A stretch of DNA of 32,221 bases, taken from assembly GCA_951801655.1 (NCBI GenBank), contig CATONV010000025.1, forward strand, positions 1-32,221, read 5' to 3'. The notes under the pieces are model-generated. The model did no database searches. It was not told the DNA's origin and was given only the letters and a program-made list of their open reading frames with translations. This stretch comes from an uncultured Oscillospiraceae bacterium. Lineage in GTDB: Bacteria > Bacillota > Clostridia > Oscillospirales > Oscillospiraceae. The translations under genes were made by a program, and so were the position numbers. Shown here piece after piece: positions 1,090 to 31,500 of this stretch; within the stretch, counting starts at the first letter, position 1; every line of letters begins with the position of its first letter.

Positions 1090-1320
1090 TTACGATTTTG
1101 GAAGATTGCCGTCGTTTCGCTGGTCGGTGCGTCCCAGCAGATAATCGGTCGTAACACCATAGAAGTCAGCCAGCGCAATCAGAGACTTGAGCTTCGGCTC
1201 ATTTGTTCCATCCTCATAAAATTGATAGGCGCGAAGAGAAATTCCTAAAAGGTCTGCCAATTCTCTCTGATAATACCTGTGTTCGGCACGCAACAGTTTT
1301 AATCTTTCTGCAAGTAACAT
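1090..1320 (-). CDS. XRE-family helix-turn-helix repressor (module 1)
   Basis: 76-aa protein consisting almost entirely of an XRE/Cro-CI HTH domain (about residues 4-60: RLKLLRAEHRYYQRELADLL, then GISLRAYQFYEDGTNEP as the recognition-helix region). It ends with the ADFYGVTTDYLLGRTD tail common in Firmicutes XRE regulators. The start is ATG with an AGGAG site 8 bp upstream. It is divergent from the 86-aa gene at 1395, and the 74-bp gap between them holds a strong promoter for that gene overlapped by an 11-bp inverted repeat. This suggests the protein represses its partner and perhaps itself. A second HTH of the same type at 9117 is paired with a paralogue of the same partner. The family assignment is secure; the target is inferred from the layout. 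Confidence 0.95.
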   Translation of the reverse strand: MLLAERLKLLRAEHRYYQRELADLLGISLRAYQFYEDGTNEPKLKSLIALADFYGVTTDYLLGRTDQRNDGNLPKS

Positions 1321-1332
1321 ATATTATACTCC

Positions 1333-1381
1333 TTGACATGTATCAATAATCGTGTTACTATGTATCAGAAATACATAGTAA
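1333..1381 (+). promoter_or_regulatory. Sigma-A promoter with overlapping palindromic operator, drives the 86-aa gene
   Basis: TTGACA at 1333-1338, 17-bp spacer, TACTAT at 1356-1361. A perfect 11-bp inverted repeat (TTACTATGTAT at 1355-1365 and ATACATAGTAA at 1371-1381, 5-bp spacer) covers the -10 box and the expected transcription start. The word ATGTATCA also occurs at 1338-1345 and 1360-1367, 22 bp apart or about two helical turns. This fits cooperative binding of a dimeric XRE repressor, presumably the divergent gene at 1090-1320. Confidence 0.8.
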
Positions 1382-1394
1382 GGGAGCATTCACT

Positions 1395-1655
1395 ATGACC
1401 GAACTTACCGATACTCTATTTGAATTTCTGTCCAAGCACTACATACACGGCATCATCCAGGACCCGGAGTATGAAAAGGCCGTCGGCTATGCTGAGGCAA
1501 AGCAGGAGCTTCTCAGCAGCCAGCTGGACGAGGAGCAGCGCAGTCTGCTGAAGGGGATGCTGGATGAAATCAGCCTGGCCCACCACATGGAGCAGCGGCG
1601 GCTGTTTCGGGCCACTCTGTCCCTCAGCCGGGAGCTGTCCAGACTGGTGGGCTAA
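1395..1655 (+). CDS. Small helical protein of unknown function, partner of XRE module 1
   Basis: 86 aa, charged, predicted mostly alpha-helical, with no signal peptide or membrane segment. An AAGGGAG site lies just upstream of the ATG at 1395. It aligns without gaps to the product of 8765-9028 at about 40% identity (my count, 34 of 86). Shared features are the N-terminal L-T-x-x-L-x-E-F-L, D-x-E-Y near residue 24, L-D/N-E-x-Q in the middle, and a C-terminal LFxAxLSLxRELxxLVG. The function is not known to me. It may belong to a small clostridial DUF family (DUF6809 comes to mind, unverified). Both copies are divergent from an XRE repressor gene and carry a strong regulated promoter. The TAA stop overlaps the dprA stop on the other strand (dprA ends at 1652). 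Confidence 0.9.
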   Translation: MTELTDTLFEFLSKHYIHGIIQDPEYEKAVGYAEAKQELLSSQLDEEQRSLLKGMLDEISLAHHMEQRRLFRATLSLSRELSRLVG

Positions 1656-7433: not shown

Positions 7434-8693
7434 ATGAAAAAACCATTTGTCACCCTGGCGCAGCTTCAGGAAATTGTGAAGGACTACCCCACCCCCTTTC
7501 ACCTCTATGACGAAAAGGGCATCCGGGAAAATGCCCGGGCCCTGTACCAAGCCTTTTCGTGGAACCCGGGGTTTAAAGAGTATTTCGCCGTAAAAGCCAC
7601 CCCCAATCCGCAGATTTTAAGGCTCCTCCACGAGGAGGGCTGCGGCGTGGACTGCTCCTCCCTCACCGAGCTGATGATGAGTGACCGCTGCGGCTTCAAG
7701 GGCGGGGAGATCATGTTCTCCTCCAACGACACTCCCGCCGAGGAGTTTGTCCTGGCCGACCGGCTGGGGGCCACCATTAATCTGGACGACATCACCCACA
7801 TTGACTTTCTGCAAAAAACCATCGGCCATATCCCCAAAAAAATCTCCTGCCGGTACAACCCCGGCGGTACCTTCACCCTGGGGGAAAGTAAGGAGGGCTT
7901 TCAGGTGATGGACAACCCCGGGGACGCCAAGTACGGCCTCACCCGGCCCCAGATGACCGAAGCTTTTCAGCGCCTGCGCGAGCTGGGGGCGGAGGAGTTC
8001 GGCATCCACGCCTTTCTGGCCTCCAACACCCTGTCCAACGAGTACTACCCCGCCCTGGCCGCCATCCTGTTCCGGACGGCGGTGGAATTAAAGGAAGAGA
8101 CCGGGGCCCACATCACCTTCATCAACCTGTCTGGCGGCGTGGGCGTGCCCTACCGTCCGGAACAGCCCGCCAACGATATCGCCGTCATCGGCGAGGGGGT
8201 GCGCAGGGCCTATGAGGAGATTCTGGTTCCCGCCGGCATGGAGGACGTGTCCATCTGCACCGAGCTGGGCCGGTTCATGCTGGCCCCCTACGGCCATCTG
8301 GTGACAAAGGTTCTCCACCAGAAGCACATTCACAAGGAGTATGTCGGCGTAGACGCCTGCGCCGCCAATCTGATGCGACCGGCCATCTACGGGGCCTACC
8401 ACCACATCACCGTCATGGGCCGGGAGGACGCCCCCCGGGACCGCAAGTACGACGTGACTGGATCCCTGTGCGAAAATTCCGACAAATTCGCCGTGGACCG
8501 TATGCTGCCAGAAATTCACATCGGCGACCTGCTGGTCATCCACGACACCGGCGCCCACGGCCACGCCATGGGCTATCAGTACAACGGCCGGCTCCGCTCC
8601 GCCGAAATTCTCCTCCAGGAGGACGGTTCCGCCCGCCTCATCCGCCGGGCCGAGACCCCCGAGGACTACTTCGCCACGGCGATTTGGGACTAG
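7434..8693 (+). CDS. lysA: Diaminopimelate decarboxylase
   Basis: 419-aa fold-III PLP enzyme that decarboxylates meso-diaminopimelate to L-lysine. The PLP lysine is Lys54 in EYFAVKATPNP. Also seen are GCGVDCSSLTEL, the FINLSGGVGVPY glycine loop that holds the PLP phosphate, CTELGRF, and the C-terminal CENSDKFA and DTGAHGHAMGYQYNGRLR. The last two supply the cysteine and tyrosine that complete the site across the dimer. AAAAAGGAG lies upstream of the ATG. The gene has its own promoter, faces away from glnA, and lies close to dapF. It is of the longer-spaced type (LysA/NspC superfamily) but the motifs fit LysA. Confidence 0.93.
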   Translation: MKKPFVTLAQLQEIVKDYPTPFHLYDEKGIRENARALYQAFSWNPGFKEYFAVKATPNPQILRLLHEEGCGVDCSSLTELMMSDRCGFKGGEIMFSSNDTPAEEFVLADRLGATINLDDITHIDFLQKTIGHIPKKISCRYNPGGTFTLGESKEGFQVMDNPGDAKYGLTRPQMTEAFQRLRELGAEEFGIHAFLASNTLSNEYYPALAAILFRTAVELKEETGAHITFINLSGGVGVPYRPEQPANDIAVIGEGVRRAYEEILVPAGMEDVSICTELGRFMLAPYGHLVTKVLHQKHIHKEYVGVDACAANLMRPAIYGAYHHITVMGREDAPRDRKYDVTGSLCENSDKFAVDRMLPEIHIGDLLVIHDTGAHGHAMGYQYNGRLRSAEILLQEDGSARLIRRAETPEDYFATAIWD

Positions 8694-8728
8694 TCGGAGC
8701 ATTTTCCCGTCCCGCCGCGGCGAAAACG

Positions 8729-8761
8729 CCTCCTTTTGAAAGGAGGTACCCCCGAAGGGGG
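8729..8761. repeat. Truncated multi-hairpin element (copy D) after lysA
   Basis: Two serial stem-loops, CCTCCTTT/AAAGGAGG (8729-8746) and CCCCC-GAA-GGGGG (8749-8761), match the first two hairpins of the element at 31341. The rest is missing: the stop codon of the small gene at 8765 follows at once. On the minus strand the hairpin is followed by CGTTTTCG and could terminate that gene; on the plus strand it may terminate lysA. Confidence 0.75.
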
Positions 8762-8764
8762 CCT

Positions 8765-9028
8765 TTACGCCCCCACGAGGACATTCAGTTCTCTGACCAG
8801 ACTCAGCGCCGCCTGGAACAGGTACGTCTTTTCCATGCTGTCCCGTTCTGCGATGCGGTCCAGAAGCAGGTCCAGTTCTTTCTGCTGTTTCTCGTTTAGG
8901 GAGGATTTCATCTGTTCTTCCTGTAATTTGGCGTTCAAAATACACGCCCTGTATTCGCCGTCATTCCATTGGTGTCCCATGCGCCTCTCCAGTAAAAATT
9001 CGTAGAGGCATTGCGTCAGGTCGTCCAT
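8765..9028 (-). CDS. Small helical protein of unknown function, partner of XRE module 2
   Basis: 87-aa paralogue of the product of 1395-1655, about 40% identical without gaps. It keeps L-T-x-x-L-x-E-F-L, D-x-E-Y, L-N-E-K-Q, D-x-M-E-x-x-x-L-F and the C-terminal LSLVRELNVLVG. Predicted mainly helical and cytoplasmic. The start is the ATG at 9026-9028 with GGAGGT 7 bases upstream; the longer frame would run through the promoter. Its promoter is a perfect consensus with a GC-rich operator in the spacer. The stop codon touches the truncated repeat at 8729-8761. The function is unknown. It is divergent from an XRE regulator exactly as in module 1, but in mirror orientation. Confidence 0.9.
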   Translation of the reverse strand: MDDLTQCLYEFLLERRMGHQWNDGEYRACILNAKLQEEQMKSSLNEKQQKELDLLLDRIAERDSMEKTYLFQAALSLVRELNVLVGA

Positions 9029-9045
9029 TGCGGCACCTCCATGTA

Positions 9046-9100
9046 CCCCAAACGGGGTTTGTTGTACTTCCATTATACAAACCCCAAACGGGGTTGTCAA
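9046..9100 (-). promoter_or_regulatory. Consensus sigma-A promoter with two operators, drives the 87-aa gene
   Basis: Minus strand: TTGACA (9095-9100), 17-bp spacer, TATAAT (9072-9077), a perfect match to consensus. The word CCCCAAACGGGGTT occurs at 9082-9095, inside the spacer, and again at 9046-9059, beyond the expected start of transcription. The inner flanks GGGGTTTGT and ACAAACCCC are also inverted repeats. A protein bound to both sites would shut the promoter. The divergent XRE gene at 9117 is the obvious candidate. Confidence 0.85.
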
Positions 9101-9116
9101 GAGGGAAGGTAAAAAA

Positions 9117-9329
9117 ATGACAAAATTACCGGAACGGCTCCTCTCACTCCGGCAGGAACAAAATTTTTCGCAAAAAGGCCTTGTCAAAGAGATGGGCCTT
9201 GCTTTAAATACCTACGTCCGGTATGAACGTGGTGAACGGGAACCCACCGCCTCCGTCCTGGTCCAAATGGCGGACTTTTACGACGTAACCCTGGATTACC
9301 TGGTAGGACGTTCAGACGAACGCAAATAA
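9117..9329 (+). CDS. XRE-family helix-turn-helix repressor (module 2)
   Basis: 70-aa protein, essentially one XRE HTH domain (about residues 5-60: LPERLLSLRQEQNFSQKGLV, then GLALNTYVRYERGEREP), ending ADFYDVTLDYLVGRSDERK. GGAAGG lies upstream of the ATG at 9117 behind an A-rich stretch. It is divergent from the 87-aa gene, with two direct operator copies between them. It resembles the module 1 regulator in size and tail but not closely in the recognition helix, which agrees with the two modules having different operators. Autoregulation is likely but inferred. Confidence 0.94.
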   Translation: MTKLPERLLSLRQEQNFSQKGLVKEMGLALNTYVRYERGEREPTASVLVQMADFYDVTLDYLVGRSDERK

Positions 9330-9330
9330 G

Positions 9331-9510
9331 GCTCCTTTTGAAAGGAGCTGTCAGCCGAAGGCTGACTGAGGATTGTATTTTGCAAAGCAAAATATACAAA
9401 GTAAACCATGTCTGCACAAGCCCGGCCTATTCCATACATTTCGCCTGCGGCGAAATACAATCCTCCGTCACCGCCCTTCGGGCGGCGCCACCTCCTTTCA
9501 AAAGGAGGCT
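9331..9510 (+). repeat. Multi-hairpin repeat element, copy A (180 bp)
   Basis: Serial stem-loops in order: CTCCTTT/AAAGGAG; GTCAGCC-GAA-GGCTGAC; a conserved core GGATTGTATTTTGC-AAA-GCAAAA followed by ACAAAGTAAAC; TTTCGCC-TGC-GGCGAAA; GCCC-TTC-GGGC; and CCTCCTTT-CA-AAAGGAGG. GGATTGTATTT also pairs over long range with AAATACAATCC near the right end, so the whole forms one branched structure. It lies between the XRE gene and lrgA. The right-hand hairpin is followed by CTTTTC and could act as a terminator. No ORF. Other copies are at 29103 and 31341, with truncated ones at 8729 and perhaps 16760. Confidence 0.88.
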
Positions 9511-9572
9511 TTTCGAGGTGGAGACCCGTGGCCGGGCGGGTCAATTTGTAATAATCATTCGAGGTGACTTCT

Positions 9573-9944
9573 TTGAACATCATGGCGGAGCTCGCCATCA
9601 TTTTTGGCGTCTGTCTGATCTCCGAGGGCATCGCGGCCCTCCTTCCGGTGGCCTTTCCGGCCAGCGTAATCGCCCTGCTGCTTCTGGGGCTGCTGCTGTT
9701 TTCCAAAATAATTAATCCGGAGAACATCCGGCGGTTCAGCGGCTTTCTGGTGGCCAACATGGCCTTTTTCTTTCTTCCCGCCTGCGTGGGCGTCATGGAA
9801 CACGCCCCGGCTATTCTAGGGCAGCTGGTTCCCTTTTTTCTCATCAGCTGTCTTACCACGCCGGTGGTCTATTTTGTTACCGCCTGGTCGGTTCAGTGGC
9901 TCATCCGCCTCTCCAGAGAAAAGGGGGCAAAGAAACATGCTTGA
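9573..9944 (+). CDS. lrgA: CidA/LrgA-family holin-like membrane protein
   Basis: 123-aa membrane protein with about four hydrophobic segments, matching the CidA/LrgA family that influences murein hydrolase export, autolysis and, in some species, overflow-metabolite transport. Typical pieces are GVCLISEGIAALLPVAFPASVIALLLL and FFLPACVGVMEH; the second holds the conserved FFxPAxVG of the family. GAGGTG at 9561-9566 fits a TTG start at 9573 best; ATG at 9582 is an alternative. The last 8 bases overlap the lrgB gene, so the pair is translationally coupled. Whether it is of the Cid or Lrg kind cannot be told from sequence, and no LytSR-type regulator is seen nearby. Confidence 0.88.
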   Translation: MNIMAELAIIFGVCLISEGIAALLPVAFPASVIALLLLGLLLFSKIINPENIRRFSGFLVANMAFFFLPACVGVMEHAPAILGQLVPFFLISCLTTPVVYFVTAWSVQWLIRLSREKGAKKHA

Positions 9945-10617
9945 CACCCTTCTTTCCTCCCCTTTTTTCGGCCTGACCCTCACCGCCGCCGCCTGGTGCT
10001 TTGGCTGCTGGGTCCAAAAAAAGACGGGGATGCTGTTGTGCAACCCGCTGCTCATTGCTGTGGCCCTGATCATTGCGGTGCTGTCCGTCTTCCGCATCCC
10101 CTATGAGACATACTCCGCCGGCGGAAACTTCATCCATCTGATGCTGGGCCCCGTTACCGCCGTGCTGGCCCTGAACATTTACAACCAGCGGGCCATTCTG
10201 CGGGAACATTTTCTTCCCGTTCTGGCCGGCTGTCTGGTGGGTAGCCTCACCAGCCTGGCCAGCGTTTTATCTCTGTGCAAGCTGTTTCACGTGGACGAGG
10301 CCCTCGCCGCCTCTCTCATGCCCAAGAGTGTCACCACCGCCATCGCCATGGGCATCGCCGAAAGTCACGGCGGCGTGGCGGGCATCGCGGCGGCGGCCGT
10401 AATGGTGGCCGGTATCACCGGGGCCATATTCGCCCCTCTGTTCGCCAAACTCTTTCACATCACCGAACCGGCAGCGGAGGGACTGGCCATCGGCGCGTGC
10501 AGCCACGCCCTGGGCACCACTCGAGCACTGGAAATCGGCCCGGTTCAGGGGGCCATGAGCTCCATCGCCATCTGCGTGTGCGGCATCTTAACCTCCATTC
10601 TGTCTCTGTTTCTGTAA
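9937..10617 (+). CDS. lrgB: CidB/LrgB-family membrane protein
   Basis: 226-aa polytopic membrane protein, partner of the gene before it. Family hallmarks are the NPLLIA stretch near residue 30, GGNFIHLMLGPVTAVLALNIY, LMPKSVTTAIAMGIAESHGG, and GACSHALGTTRALEIGPVQGAMSSIAI at the C-terminal end. The start at 9937 overlaps the lrgA stop, with GGGGGC upstream. Length is usual. The transcript ends at the strong hairpin at 10651-10678, which it shares with the convergent ftsZ. Confidence 0.92.
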   Translation: MLDTLLSSPFFGLTLTAAAWCFGCWVQKKTGMLLCNPLLIAVALIIAVLSVFRIPYETYSAGGNFIHLMLGPVTAVLALNIYNQRAILREHFLPVLAGCLVGSLTSLASVLSLCKLFHVDEALAASLMPKSVTTAIAMGIAESHGGVAGIAAAAVMVAGITGAIFAPLFAKLFHITEPAAEGLAIGACSHALGTTRALEIGPVQGAMSSIAICVCGILTSILSLFL

Positions 10618-27713: not shown

Positions 27714-29090
27714 ATGAGCATGACGGCCGTAAAATCAGTGGACCCCCGCAGTCCCGCCCGCCGGGCCGGGGTCCGCGCGGGAGAAACCCTCACCCACATC
27801 AACGGCCATCCTGTTGTGGACGTACTGGACTACAAATTCTACAGCTACGACCCCCGGCTGGAGCTGACCTTGCAGTCTCCGGACGGGACGGTCCGCACCC
27901 TGCGGGTGAAAAAATCCGAGGGGGAGGACCTGGGACTGGAGTTTGAGACCTATCTCATGGACCGGGCCCGGTCCTGCGCCAACCACTGCATCTTCTGCTT
28001 TGTGGACCAGATGCCCCCGGGCATGCGCCCCTCCCTCTACTTTAAGGACGACGACGCCCGGCTCAGCTTCCTGCTGGGCAACTACCTCACGCTGACCAAC
28101 CTCTCCCCCCGGGAGGTGCAGCGAATCATCGACCTGCGCATCTCCCCCATCAACGTGTCCGTCCACACCACCGACCGGGAACTGCGCTCGAAGATGCTGA
28201 AAAATCCCCGGGCGGGGGCGGGCATCGATATCATGGAGAGACTGGCCGCCAACCACATTACCATGAACTGCCAGATCGTCTCCTGCCCCGGCATCAACGA
28301 CGGCCCCGCCCTGGACAGCACCTTGTCCGATCTGGCGGCCATGTTCCCGGCGGTGAACAGCGTATCGGTGGTGCCTGTGGGCGTGACCAAATACCGGGAG
28401 GGGCTCTTCCCTCTGCAAACCTACACCAAAGAGACTGCCGCCGCCCTCATCGACCAGGTAGAGGCCTTCGCCGCCCGTCACCTGGAGGAGAATGGGACCC
28501 GGCTGGTGTGGTCCTCCGACGAATTTTACCTGCTGGCCGGGCGGGAGCCGCCGGTTGAGGACTACTTTGAGGACTTCACCCAGCTGGACAACGGGGTGGG
28601 CATGCTCACTCTCCTCTCCCAGGAGTTTTCCCGGGCCCTGAACCTGATGGAGCCGGACGAGATGGAGGGGACCGTCCCCTTCTCCATCGCCACCGGGGTA
28701 TCCGCCGCCCCATTTTTGGCAAAATTAGTGGGACAAGCCCGGGAAAAATGTGGTACAATAGAGGGGCGGGTCTACCCTATTGTCAACCGCTTTTTTGGGG
28801 AGACCATCACCGTGGCCGGACTGGTTACCGGGGGCGATCTCATTGACCAGCTCCGGGGGAAGGAGCTGGGGCAGCGTCTGCTCATCCCTGCCAGCATGCT
28901 CCGCTCCGGGGAGAACATCTTTCTGGACGACGTGACCACTGCCGACGTGGAGAGGGAACTGGGGGTGCCCGTCATCCCCGTCCCCCAGGACGGCTACGAG
29001 CTGCTGGACGCCATCTGCGGCGTCCGGCTTACCCCCGAGACCCAGAAAGCCGCCTGGGAAAATGAGGAATTTTACCGGTATAATCCGTAG
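27714..29090 (+). CDS. DUF512 family protein (PDZ plus radical-SAM-like)
   Basis: 458 aa. An N-terminal PDZ-like domain (about residues 1-75: VDPRSPARRAGVRAGETLTHINGH) is followed by a radical-SAM core with the cluster motif C-x3-C-x2-C in SCANHCIFCFVDQMPPGMR (about residues 88-95). The DUF512 C-terminal part follows (ETITVAGLVTGGDLIDQL, FLDDVTTADVERELGVP). The reaction is unknown. In Clostridia the gene is often next to der, plsY, gpsA and spoIVA, and here it precedes der-plsY-gpsA. AAGGAGG lies upstream of the ATG at 27714; a 20-residue longer frame overlaps the promoter. It is divergent from the cortex-lytic operon. Confidence 0.93.
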   Translation: MSMTAVKSVDPRSPARRAGVRAGETLTHINGHPVVDVLDYKFYSYDPRLELTLQSPDGTVRTLRVKKSEGEDLGLEFETYLMDRARSCANHCIFCFVDQMPPGMRPSLYFKDDDARLSFLLGNYLTLTNLSPREVQRIIDLRISPINVSVHTTDRELRSKMLKNPRAGAGIDIMERLAANHITMNCQIVSCPGINDGPALDSTLSDLAAMFPAVNSVSVVPVGVTKYREGLFPLQTYTKETAAALIDQVEAFAARHLEENGTRLVWSSDEFYLLAGREPPVEDYFEDFTQLDNGVGMLTLLSQEFSRALNLMEPDEMEGTVPFSIATGVSAAPFLAKLVGQAREKCGTIEGRVYPIVNRFFGETITVAGLVTGGDLIDQLRGKELGQRLLIPASMLRSGENIFLDDVTTADVERELGVPVIPVPQDGYELLDAICGVRLTPETQKAAWENEEFYRYNP

Positions 29091-29102
29091 GGGAGCGAAA
29101 AG

Positions 29103-29283
29103 AGCCCCTTTTGAAAGGGGCTGTCACGGAGAAGCCGTGACTGAGGATTGCGTTTTGCGAAGCAAAACATACGAAGTAAACAAAGTTTTGCAACCTTGCG
29201 TTTGCTTCGCACATTTCGCCTGCGGCGAAATCAATCCTCCGCCCCAGTTTGCGAACTGGGGCACCTCCTTTCTAAAGGAGGCT
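29103..29283 (+). repeat. Multi-hairpin repeat element, copy B (181 bp)
   Basis: Same plan as copy A. End hairpin CCCCTTT-TG-AAAGGGG; then GTCACGG-AGAAG-CCGTGAC in place of GTCAGCC/GGCTGAC; core GGATTGCGTTTTGC-GAA-GCAAAA with ACGAAGTAAAC; TTTCGCC-TGC-GGCGAAA; then GCCCCAGTTTGC-GAACTGGGGC in place of the shorter GCCC/GGGC stem; and end hairpin CCTCCTTT-CT-AAAGGAGG. It lies between the DUF512 gene and der, on the same strand as both. Confidence 0.88.
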
Positions 29284-29324
29284 GGCCCTGCGGGGGACGA
29301 GAGAGTTTAAAAGGAAGTGACCAT

Positions 29325-31340: not shown

Positions 31341-31500
31341 AGCCTCCTTTTGAAAGGAGGTGCCCCCGAAGGGGGCGGAGGATTGCGTTTTGCGAAGCAA
31401 AACATACGAAGTAAACGAGATTTGGATTATTTCATACATTTCGCTTCGCGAAATACAATCCCCACCGCCCTTCGGGCGGAGCCCCTTTCAAAAGGGGCCT
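31341..31500 (+). repeat. Multi-hairpin repeat element, copy C (160 bp)
   Basis: Same plan: CCTCCTTT-TG-AAAGGAGG; GCCCCC-GAA-GGGGGC; core GGATTGCGTTTTGC-GAA-GCAAAA with ACGAAGTAAAC identical to copy B; a shortened TTTCGC-TTC-GCGAAA; GCCC-TTC-GGGC; and CCCCTTT-CA-AAAGGGG. It lies between plsY and gpsA in the direction of transcription, inside an expected operon. Confidence 0.88.

Follow-up and report, generated by a model that had tools for sequence, protein, structure and literature searches.

Organisation of the locus

The window (the whole stretch of DNA analysed here, 32,221 nucleotides of contig CATONV010000025.1 from the uncultured Oscillospiraceae genome GCA_951801655.1) carries two modules in which a gene for a short XRE protein diverges from a gene for a small partner protein (Table 1). 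Module 2, the one under study, lies between a LysA-like decarboxylase gene and genes resembling lrgA and lrgB. The start of its small gene was chosen inside a longer open frame. Aligned with its module 1 counterpart, the encoded protein shows 40% identity, free of gaps, over 86 residues. This likeness, the divergent order and the perfect promoter of the small gene had all been claimed in an earlier reading made from the letters alone (the sequence-only reading), and they were confirmed. A promoter scan of positions 8690-9600 gave one site matching at least 9/12, where shuffled sequences averaged 0.4. The operator had been described as lying in the promoter spacer and again downstream. Two identical copies of the 15-mer ACCCCAAACGGGGTT are present (9045-9059 and 9081-9095, spaced 36 nt), but their placement needs small corrections: by our reading of the sequence, the outer copy follows the -10 and precedes the small gene, and the copy in the spacer shares one base with the -35.

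Table 1. Features of the two modules and of the genes flanking module 2 (window coordinates).
Feature	Position	Strand	Remarks
Module 1 XRE gene	1090..1320	-	76 aa
Module 1 control region	1333..1379	.	TTGACA 1333-1338, TACTAT 1356-1361; coordinates read from sequence
Module 1 inverted repeat ACTATGTAT...ATACATAGT	1357-1379	.	read from sequence
Module 1 small partner gene	1395..1655	+	86 aa
Upstream flanking gene, LysA-like decarboxylase	7434..8693	+	best NCBIfam match TIGR01048, 274.5 bits, under cut-off 297.9
Module 2 small partner gene	8765..9028	-	87 aa; predicted fold of three helices; DUF6809 relative below threshold
Putative counterpart of exchanged specificity block	9041..9266	.	operators and XRE codons 1 to about 50
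Operator O1	9044..9059	.	between -10 and small gene
Small-gene promoter TTGACA-17-TATAAT	9072..9100	-	12/12; TTGACA 9100-9095, TATAAT 9077-9072
Operator O2	9080..9095	.	within promoter spacer, most of which it fills
Likely XRE ribosome-binding sequence	9101..9109	+	directly adjoins small-gene -35; read from sequence
Module 2 XRE repressor gene	9117..9329	+	70 aa; HTH only; HTH_3 50.5 bits, cut-off 23
XRE tail, putative counterpart of the part staying with the small gene in exchanges	9267..9329	+	
Downstream flanking gene, CidA/LrgA-like	9564..9944	+	under curated cut-offs
LrgB-like gene	9937..10617	+	under curated cut-offs

The limits of the specificity block in Table 1 were carried over from the exchanges seen at other loci (below) and are putative for this copy. 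The operator of module 1 is of the ATGTAT/ATACAT type, unlike that of module 2, and the two XRE proteins share 46% identity across 67 residues. In the 2.5-Mb own genome, the 16-bp operator of module 2 was found with zero or one mismatch only at its two known places, and no third copy appeared at up to two mismatches. At three mismatches there were five other places, compared with 16 matches for a reversed-pattern control at the same limit. A wide regulator with a regulon was rejected, since the genome holds no near copy of the operator outside module 2.

Copies in the genome and in relatives

The own genome contains 50 matches to the module 2 XRE protein at E up to 10, and by our count the window together with 40 fetched stretches covers 45 of them. 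By our reading there are about 22 pairs, each with a short XRE gene, a small gene pointing away from it and, next to the start region of XRE, a TGTCAA-like box that is the partner's -35; their recognition motifs were read in the same way. The genome is 89% complete in 150 contigs and copies may be missing. The motifs of the 22 pairs are of 21 different kinds, with one common to the copies on contigs C6 and C111. The sequence-only reading had proposed a multi-copy, separately wired family on the basis of two copies, and the full-genome count of pairs, the diversity of motifs and the fact that operators track the XRE protein more than the small protein (below) bear this out. One further XRE gene (C6:25566, locus L035), 60% identical to that of module 2, is without partner or operators and stands at the end of a membrane-protein-like frame.

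Of 61 same-genus genomes, the own one counted, 27 contain a match to the small protein at E up to 1e-3, and 34 matches lie outside the own genome. A divergent XRE gene was present at all 29 of these loci that were fetched, 42-110 nt from the small gene; of the other five, the three examined also show one. A profile search of 200 genomes of the family matched 10, namely the own genome and nine of other genera, and 12 of the 13 loci in these nine have the XRE gene. Among the 11 loci that come from named genomes are some in Lawsonibacter metagenome assemblies, in Flintibacter muris and in Pseudoflavonifractor sp. 60. Thus, the pairs are conserved in other genomes, as the proposal of a family had supposed. 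Among loci fetched via the XRE protein, partly the same places as in the other sets, we read a small partner at 25 of 28, the exceptions being L228, L235 and L246; at L228, two XRE genes face each other over a common control region and no helical partner is seen. Over 31 modules the -35 is exact in 28 and the -10 in 16 (both in 15). Apparent internal stop codons in three small genes of other genera were dismissed because they are ordinary gene ends.

Presence and absence of the module were compared at two sites. For the LysA-like gene 30 loci were fetched, and lrgA lies within 1.5 kb in 24 of them; the module stands between the two genes in 11 (own included) and is absent in 13, in a search that could miss modules with other partner types. 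Two of the module-free loci have lrgA about 6 nt away, and at one further locus a fragment of the small gene remains. At the site of module 1, XRE follows dprA in five of 30 loci, and in 23 others topA follows dprA without XRE at a gap of 18-421 nt.

In nine of the 11 occupied sites next to the LysA-like gene, only 0-14 nt lie between XRE and lrgA, as judged from their aligned ends. XRE usually abuts lrgA here, so the two are probably read together and lrgAB as a whole may be co-read. The same proximity would suit a module that is a local regulator of its neighbour, lrgAB in this case, with the small protein serving as a co-factor or sensor of XRE. We consider this improbable, as the same kind of module occurs at unrelated sites (between dprA and topA, beside valS, beside dgt), more than half of the lysA-lrgA loci do without it in the search described above, and the window has a repeat-containing stretch of 234 nt between XRE and lrgA.

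Operators follow the DNA-reading half of XRE

Operators were compared in 31 pairs, that is 32 less L079, which has lost most of its control region. The 17-nt spacer of the promoter, overlapped by one operator, was taken as a proxy, and its distances were correlated with protein distances in Mantel tests (N=31, ignoring relatedness). The correlation was highest with XRE residues 1-25 (r=0.70), lower with the recognition helix (r=0.54) and the XRE C-terminus (r=0.46), and weak with the small protein (r=0.22, p 0.004). Partial correlations in the same 31 pairs were 0.53 for the helix given the small protein and 0.17 for the small protein given the helix. The expectation that each XRE gene co-varies with its own operator is thus supported, and on this sequence comparison the operator type goes with the N-terminal, putatively DNA-reading half of the protein. 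In many pairs the palindrome of the operator is imperfect: on a crude score for inverted repeats the control regions averaged 5.4 against 3.9 in shuffles, and nine of the 31 exceeded 5, compared with 5.8% of shuffles. An exact ACCCC-n4-GGGGT pair was found in eight of the 61 genomes, at one place in each, and every place is beside a small gene.

Exchange of the specificity block

The strongest feature of the system is one that the sequence-only reading did not contain. In three pairs of sister loci (L064/L065, L087/L088 and L090/L091), a block of about 230 bp comprising the operators and the DNA-reading half of XRE has been replaced, while the small gene and the XRE tail are alike. One breakpoint lies 0 to about 18 nt from the start of the small gene and the other in the last third of XRE. 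L064 and L065 are one chromosomal site in two species, with the LysA-like gene on one side and lrgA on the other. In 40-nt windows the flank on the side of the LysA-like gene is 82-97% identical between them and the small gene 95-100%, its ribosome-binding site still being common to both; identity then falls to 33-55% over the control region and about the first 50 XRE codons, and recovers to 93% in the tail of XRE, with 73-80% near the junction of the genes and 88-100% past that point. In L087/L088 the small gene is 95-100% identical, the block 35-57% and the last XRE window 93%, followed by a mixed flank. L090/L091 is the weakest of the three exchanges, with 72-90% in the small gene, 42-64% in the block, 85% in the XRE tail and mostly 78-100% in the flank. 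L088 adjoins a dgt gene and L090 adjoins valS.

Silent sites in XRE codons 1-45 are saturated and those of the small genes differ less; the block was replaced, not rapidly mutated. In L087/L088 dS is 0.095 in the small gene and 1.68 in XRE codons 1-45, and in L090/L091 it is 0.71 and 3.2; in L064/L065 it is 0.017 in the small gene and not computable in the XRE codons. The small gene has a dN/dS of 0.12-0.32 in seven of eight pairs, the eighth being L064/L065, where dN (0.025) exceeds dS (0.017) on too few changes to judge. Several of the genomes in the exchange pairs are metagenome assemblies. An assembly error is nevertheless an unlikely cause, because the stretch that was replaced, in L065 as in the other cases, forms an entire control region together with its XRE.

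At four of 42 loci, tandem XRE genes stand behind one small gene (three genes in L077, L079 and L250, two in L261). Their recognition helices differ, and in L077 and L079 their tails are nearly alike. Judged from their sequences, these tandem genes look like intermediates, or a store, of the block exchange: DNA loss between two similar tails would yield a clean swap of specificity. By our reading, tails of the LAGR/LTGR type occur in all nine modules of one partner subfamily and in none of the other 32 from that cluster, and L065 has the tail usual for its own partner behind an N-terminus resembling that of the LAGR/LTGR modules. It may be suggested from this that the tail is a partner-specific interface, although a nearest-neighbour test of how well parts of XRE predict the partner family (n=54) did not separate the C-terminus (0.94) from the N-terminus (0.93), with 0.87 for the helix, 0.91 for the tail and 0.61 by chance. 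Conservation of the tail may have reasons of its own, and the breakpoint there may reflect just the homology needed for recombination.

The small partner protein

AlphaFold predicts three helices for the small protein (residues 3-21, 24-42 and 46-86) with a mean pLDDT of 89.9 and a pTM of 0.61, and a fold search found no solved structure resembling the predicted fold. The proteins of module 2 (22.3 bits) and module 1 (25.0 bits) stay below the cut-off of 27 bits for DUF6809 (PF20648). A profile of the small proteins (22 rows) aligned with canonical DUF6809 (14 rows) over 63 columns at a probability of 90% (E 1.5e-6), and by this profile match the small proteins are distant DUF6809 relatives. 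That the two partners might belong to unrelated families, an outcome named beforehand as refuting the proposal, is not what was found; they are homologous and match the same Pfam family below its cut-off. DUF6809 occurs at E up to 1e-4 in 152 of 297 genomes sampled from the order. Among the 29 strongest loci fetched, two have an XRE gene of the module type within 1.5 kb and four have an integrase-like frame. Because 27 of the 29 are without such an XRE gene at that range, the XRE-paired branch looks distinct within the DUF6809 relatives.

With a looser -35 criterion, 65 distinct modules were collected, and their partners fall into clusters of 41, 10, 3 and 2 with nine singles. Partners of group B gave no profile match to the module 2 family (3.0%) or to canonical DUF6809 (4.5%), and C62, which is above the DUF6809 cut-off, clusters with group B by phmmer. 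A single family for all partners was considered and is doubtful given the profile mismatch of group B, although the clustering of C62 points the other way.

Proposed mechanism and alternatives

We propose, tentatively and at close to an even chance, that the module is a self-regulating switch of the repressor/antirepressor type with a swappable specificity block, in which the small protein would act on XRE. The XRE protein would bind both operators, shut off the small gene and limit its own expression, a role as autorepressor suggested by the operator positions and by general knowledge of such repressors. Less certainly, the small protein may be an antirepressor-type partner acting on conserved parts of XRE, which fits the finding that the small gene is left in place when the DNA-reading half of XRE is swapped. 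Brief derepression would then feed back and the pair could flip between two states. As the small protein would be indifferent to the operator that XRE reads, the block could be exchanged with the switch left intact, and new specificities would be favoured by selection for copies that leave the others in the cell undisturbed. A precedent for the antirepressor role is given by the Gifsy prophages, where, in the available portion of the source, small antirepressors inactivate short, non-cleaved repressors, and both GfoA and GfhA can act on two repressors of unlike operator specificity, inactivating them (PMC3121763). The Gifsy antirepressors are phage-borne, whereas the small gene here is the neighbour of the repressor itself and is absent from the phage sets.

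The main rival to such a switch is a transcriptionally locked toxin: the small protein would be harmful in quantity, XRE would merely silence a strong promoter, and an arriving copy would be disarmed by any XRE of its specificity already in the cell, favouring ever new operator types. The consensus promoter guarded by two operators would suit this, as would the patchy presence in the genus. Moreover, among the 42 loci no small gene keeps its control region without XRE. The only locus without XRE, L260, has lost the control region along with the XRE reading half and retains the small gene and the XRE tail. Decay on the side of the small gene with XRE kept is seen at L086, where the small protein is shortened and altered, and in the orphan XRE gene at C6:25566. 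Still, we find a toxin rather unlikely. Classical toxin-antitoxin operons differ from the divergent order and HTH-only XRE protein found here. The small proteins match no known toxin family in Pfam, NCBIfam, PHROGs or PADLOC, where beyond DUF6809 there were only scattered weak matches, and the rarity of such XRE genes at the strongest DUF6809 loci also tells against a toxin held in check by them. The closest analogue, the XRE-DUF397 pairs of Streptomyces, was first predicted to be toxin-antitoxin (PMC2701414), but according to the accessible part of a later paper none of 14 pairs tested behaved in that way (PMC10364602).

Another reading, to which we give little credence, is a chromosomal compatibility system that resembles the heteroimmunity of phages but involves no phage: copies would shut out or disarm each other according to their operator specificity. 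If true, a successful copy would need an operator type unread by any resident XRE, which would drive the block exchange, and the tandem XRE genes would be earlier specificities retained for silencing former types, a small memory of past encounters.

It is very unlikely, in our view, that the modules are remnants of the lysogeny switch of a phage or integrative element and have no present function. The XRE proteins do resemble repressors of the RstR type and of PHROGs. They exceed the HTH_3 (PF01381) cut-off, module 1 with 44.9 bits, and reach 62.5 and 61.1 bits against the RstR family NF041951, below its cut-off of 80. A viral contig (L143, 3636-4351) carries a related XRE gene beside three ACCCC-n4-GGGGT sites, and two DUF6809-like genes of the own genome (L033 and L034, on C18 and C86) abut genes read as tyrosine integrases. 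However, the divergent gene of L143 encodes 117 aa and by eye is unlike the small protein, and L143 is the sole exception among 18 viral stretches with the operator-pair pattern, the other 17 having no XRE of the module type at the score threshold. Relatives of the small protein were absent from 50,697 phage and 72,556 plasmid records, and two pattern-based scans of IMG/VR gave 58 and 69 stretches, none of which was confirmed as a relative. With these results a switch carried by phages was rejected. The low dN/dS of the small gene and the conserved pairing also make decay unlikely, and the flanking genes tested are of the housekeeping type.

Relation to known systems

In copy number and logic, the nearest analogue is the WhiJ/BldB-type XRE-DUF397 family of Streptomyces, as far as the available portions of the cited papers go. 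There, too, a genome has many paralogous pairs in which an XRE regulator is accompanied by a small protein, for the most part of up to 100 aa, and for WhiJ the partner is thought to hold the XRE protein off DNA (PMC6262351, PMC10294661, PMC10364602). The Streptomyces partner gene often comes after the XRE gene and encodes a DUF397 domain, for which domain searches gave no match in the small partner studied here, and the XRE protein is larger (Scr1 is about 34 kDa). In what is accessible of those papers, no exchange of specificity blocks is described.

In the immunity regions of lambdoid phages, repressor and operators are exchanged together and define compatibility. The module differs in being chromosomal, multi-copy and phage-free, and in that the divergent gene stays out of the exchanged block.

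The sequence-only reading had called the pair its best candidate for an undescribed system. A literature search found no description of this system and no mention of DUF6809, which speaks for this claim, but the small proteins are distant kin of DUF6809 and other cases of a short repressor paired with a small protein are known. All the parts belong to known kinds. The novelty, so far as our searches go, lies in a multi-copy family on the chromosome whose operators travel as a block with the DNA-reading half of the repressor, the partner staying behind.

Within one bacterial group, such a family supplies a naturally occurring collection of repressor-operator pairs that are largely insulated from one another. 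The pairing of helix and DNA site can be read over dozens of copies, making a recognition code of short XRE proteins directly testable, and the pairs could be ready parts for gene circuits that do not interfere with each other. It also shows regulatory specificity being exchanged, much as in phages, at places on the chromosome that stay fixed, and provides a first biological setting for relatives of the uncharacterised DUF6809, which is common in this order of gut bacteria.

Other short XRE genes and repeats

A further class of short XRE genes with small divergent frames was seen in the own genome (L041, L046 and L054, on C16, C99 and C23). These frames are of the YKEMY...EEMYLSS or YEKMYHTLF type, about 46-60 aa long, and are without the layout of -35 and operators.

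Repeats with CTCCTTTTGAAAGGAG-like ends flank module 2, one of them between XRE and lrgA, and seem to recur elsewhere in the window. By eye, dispersed repeats with such ends and with GATTGTATTTTGCAAAGCAAAATATACAAAG-like stretches lie at about 8725-8765, 9331-9520, 29060-29310 and 31350-31500.
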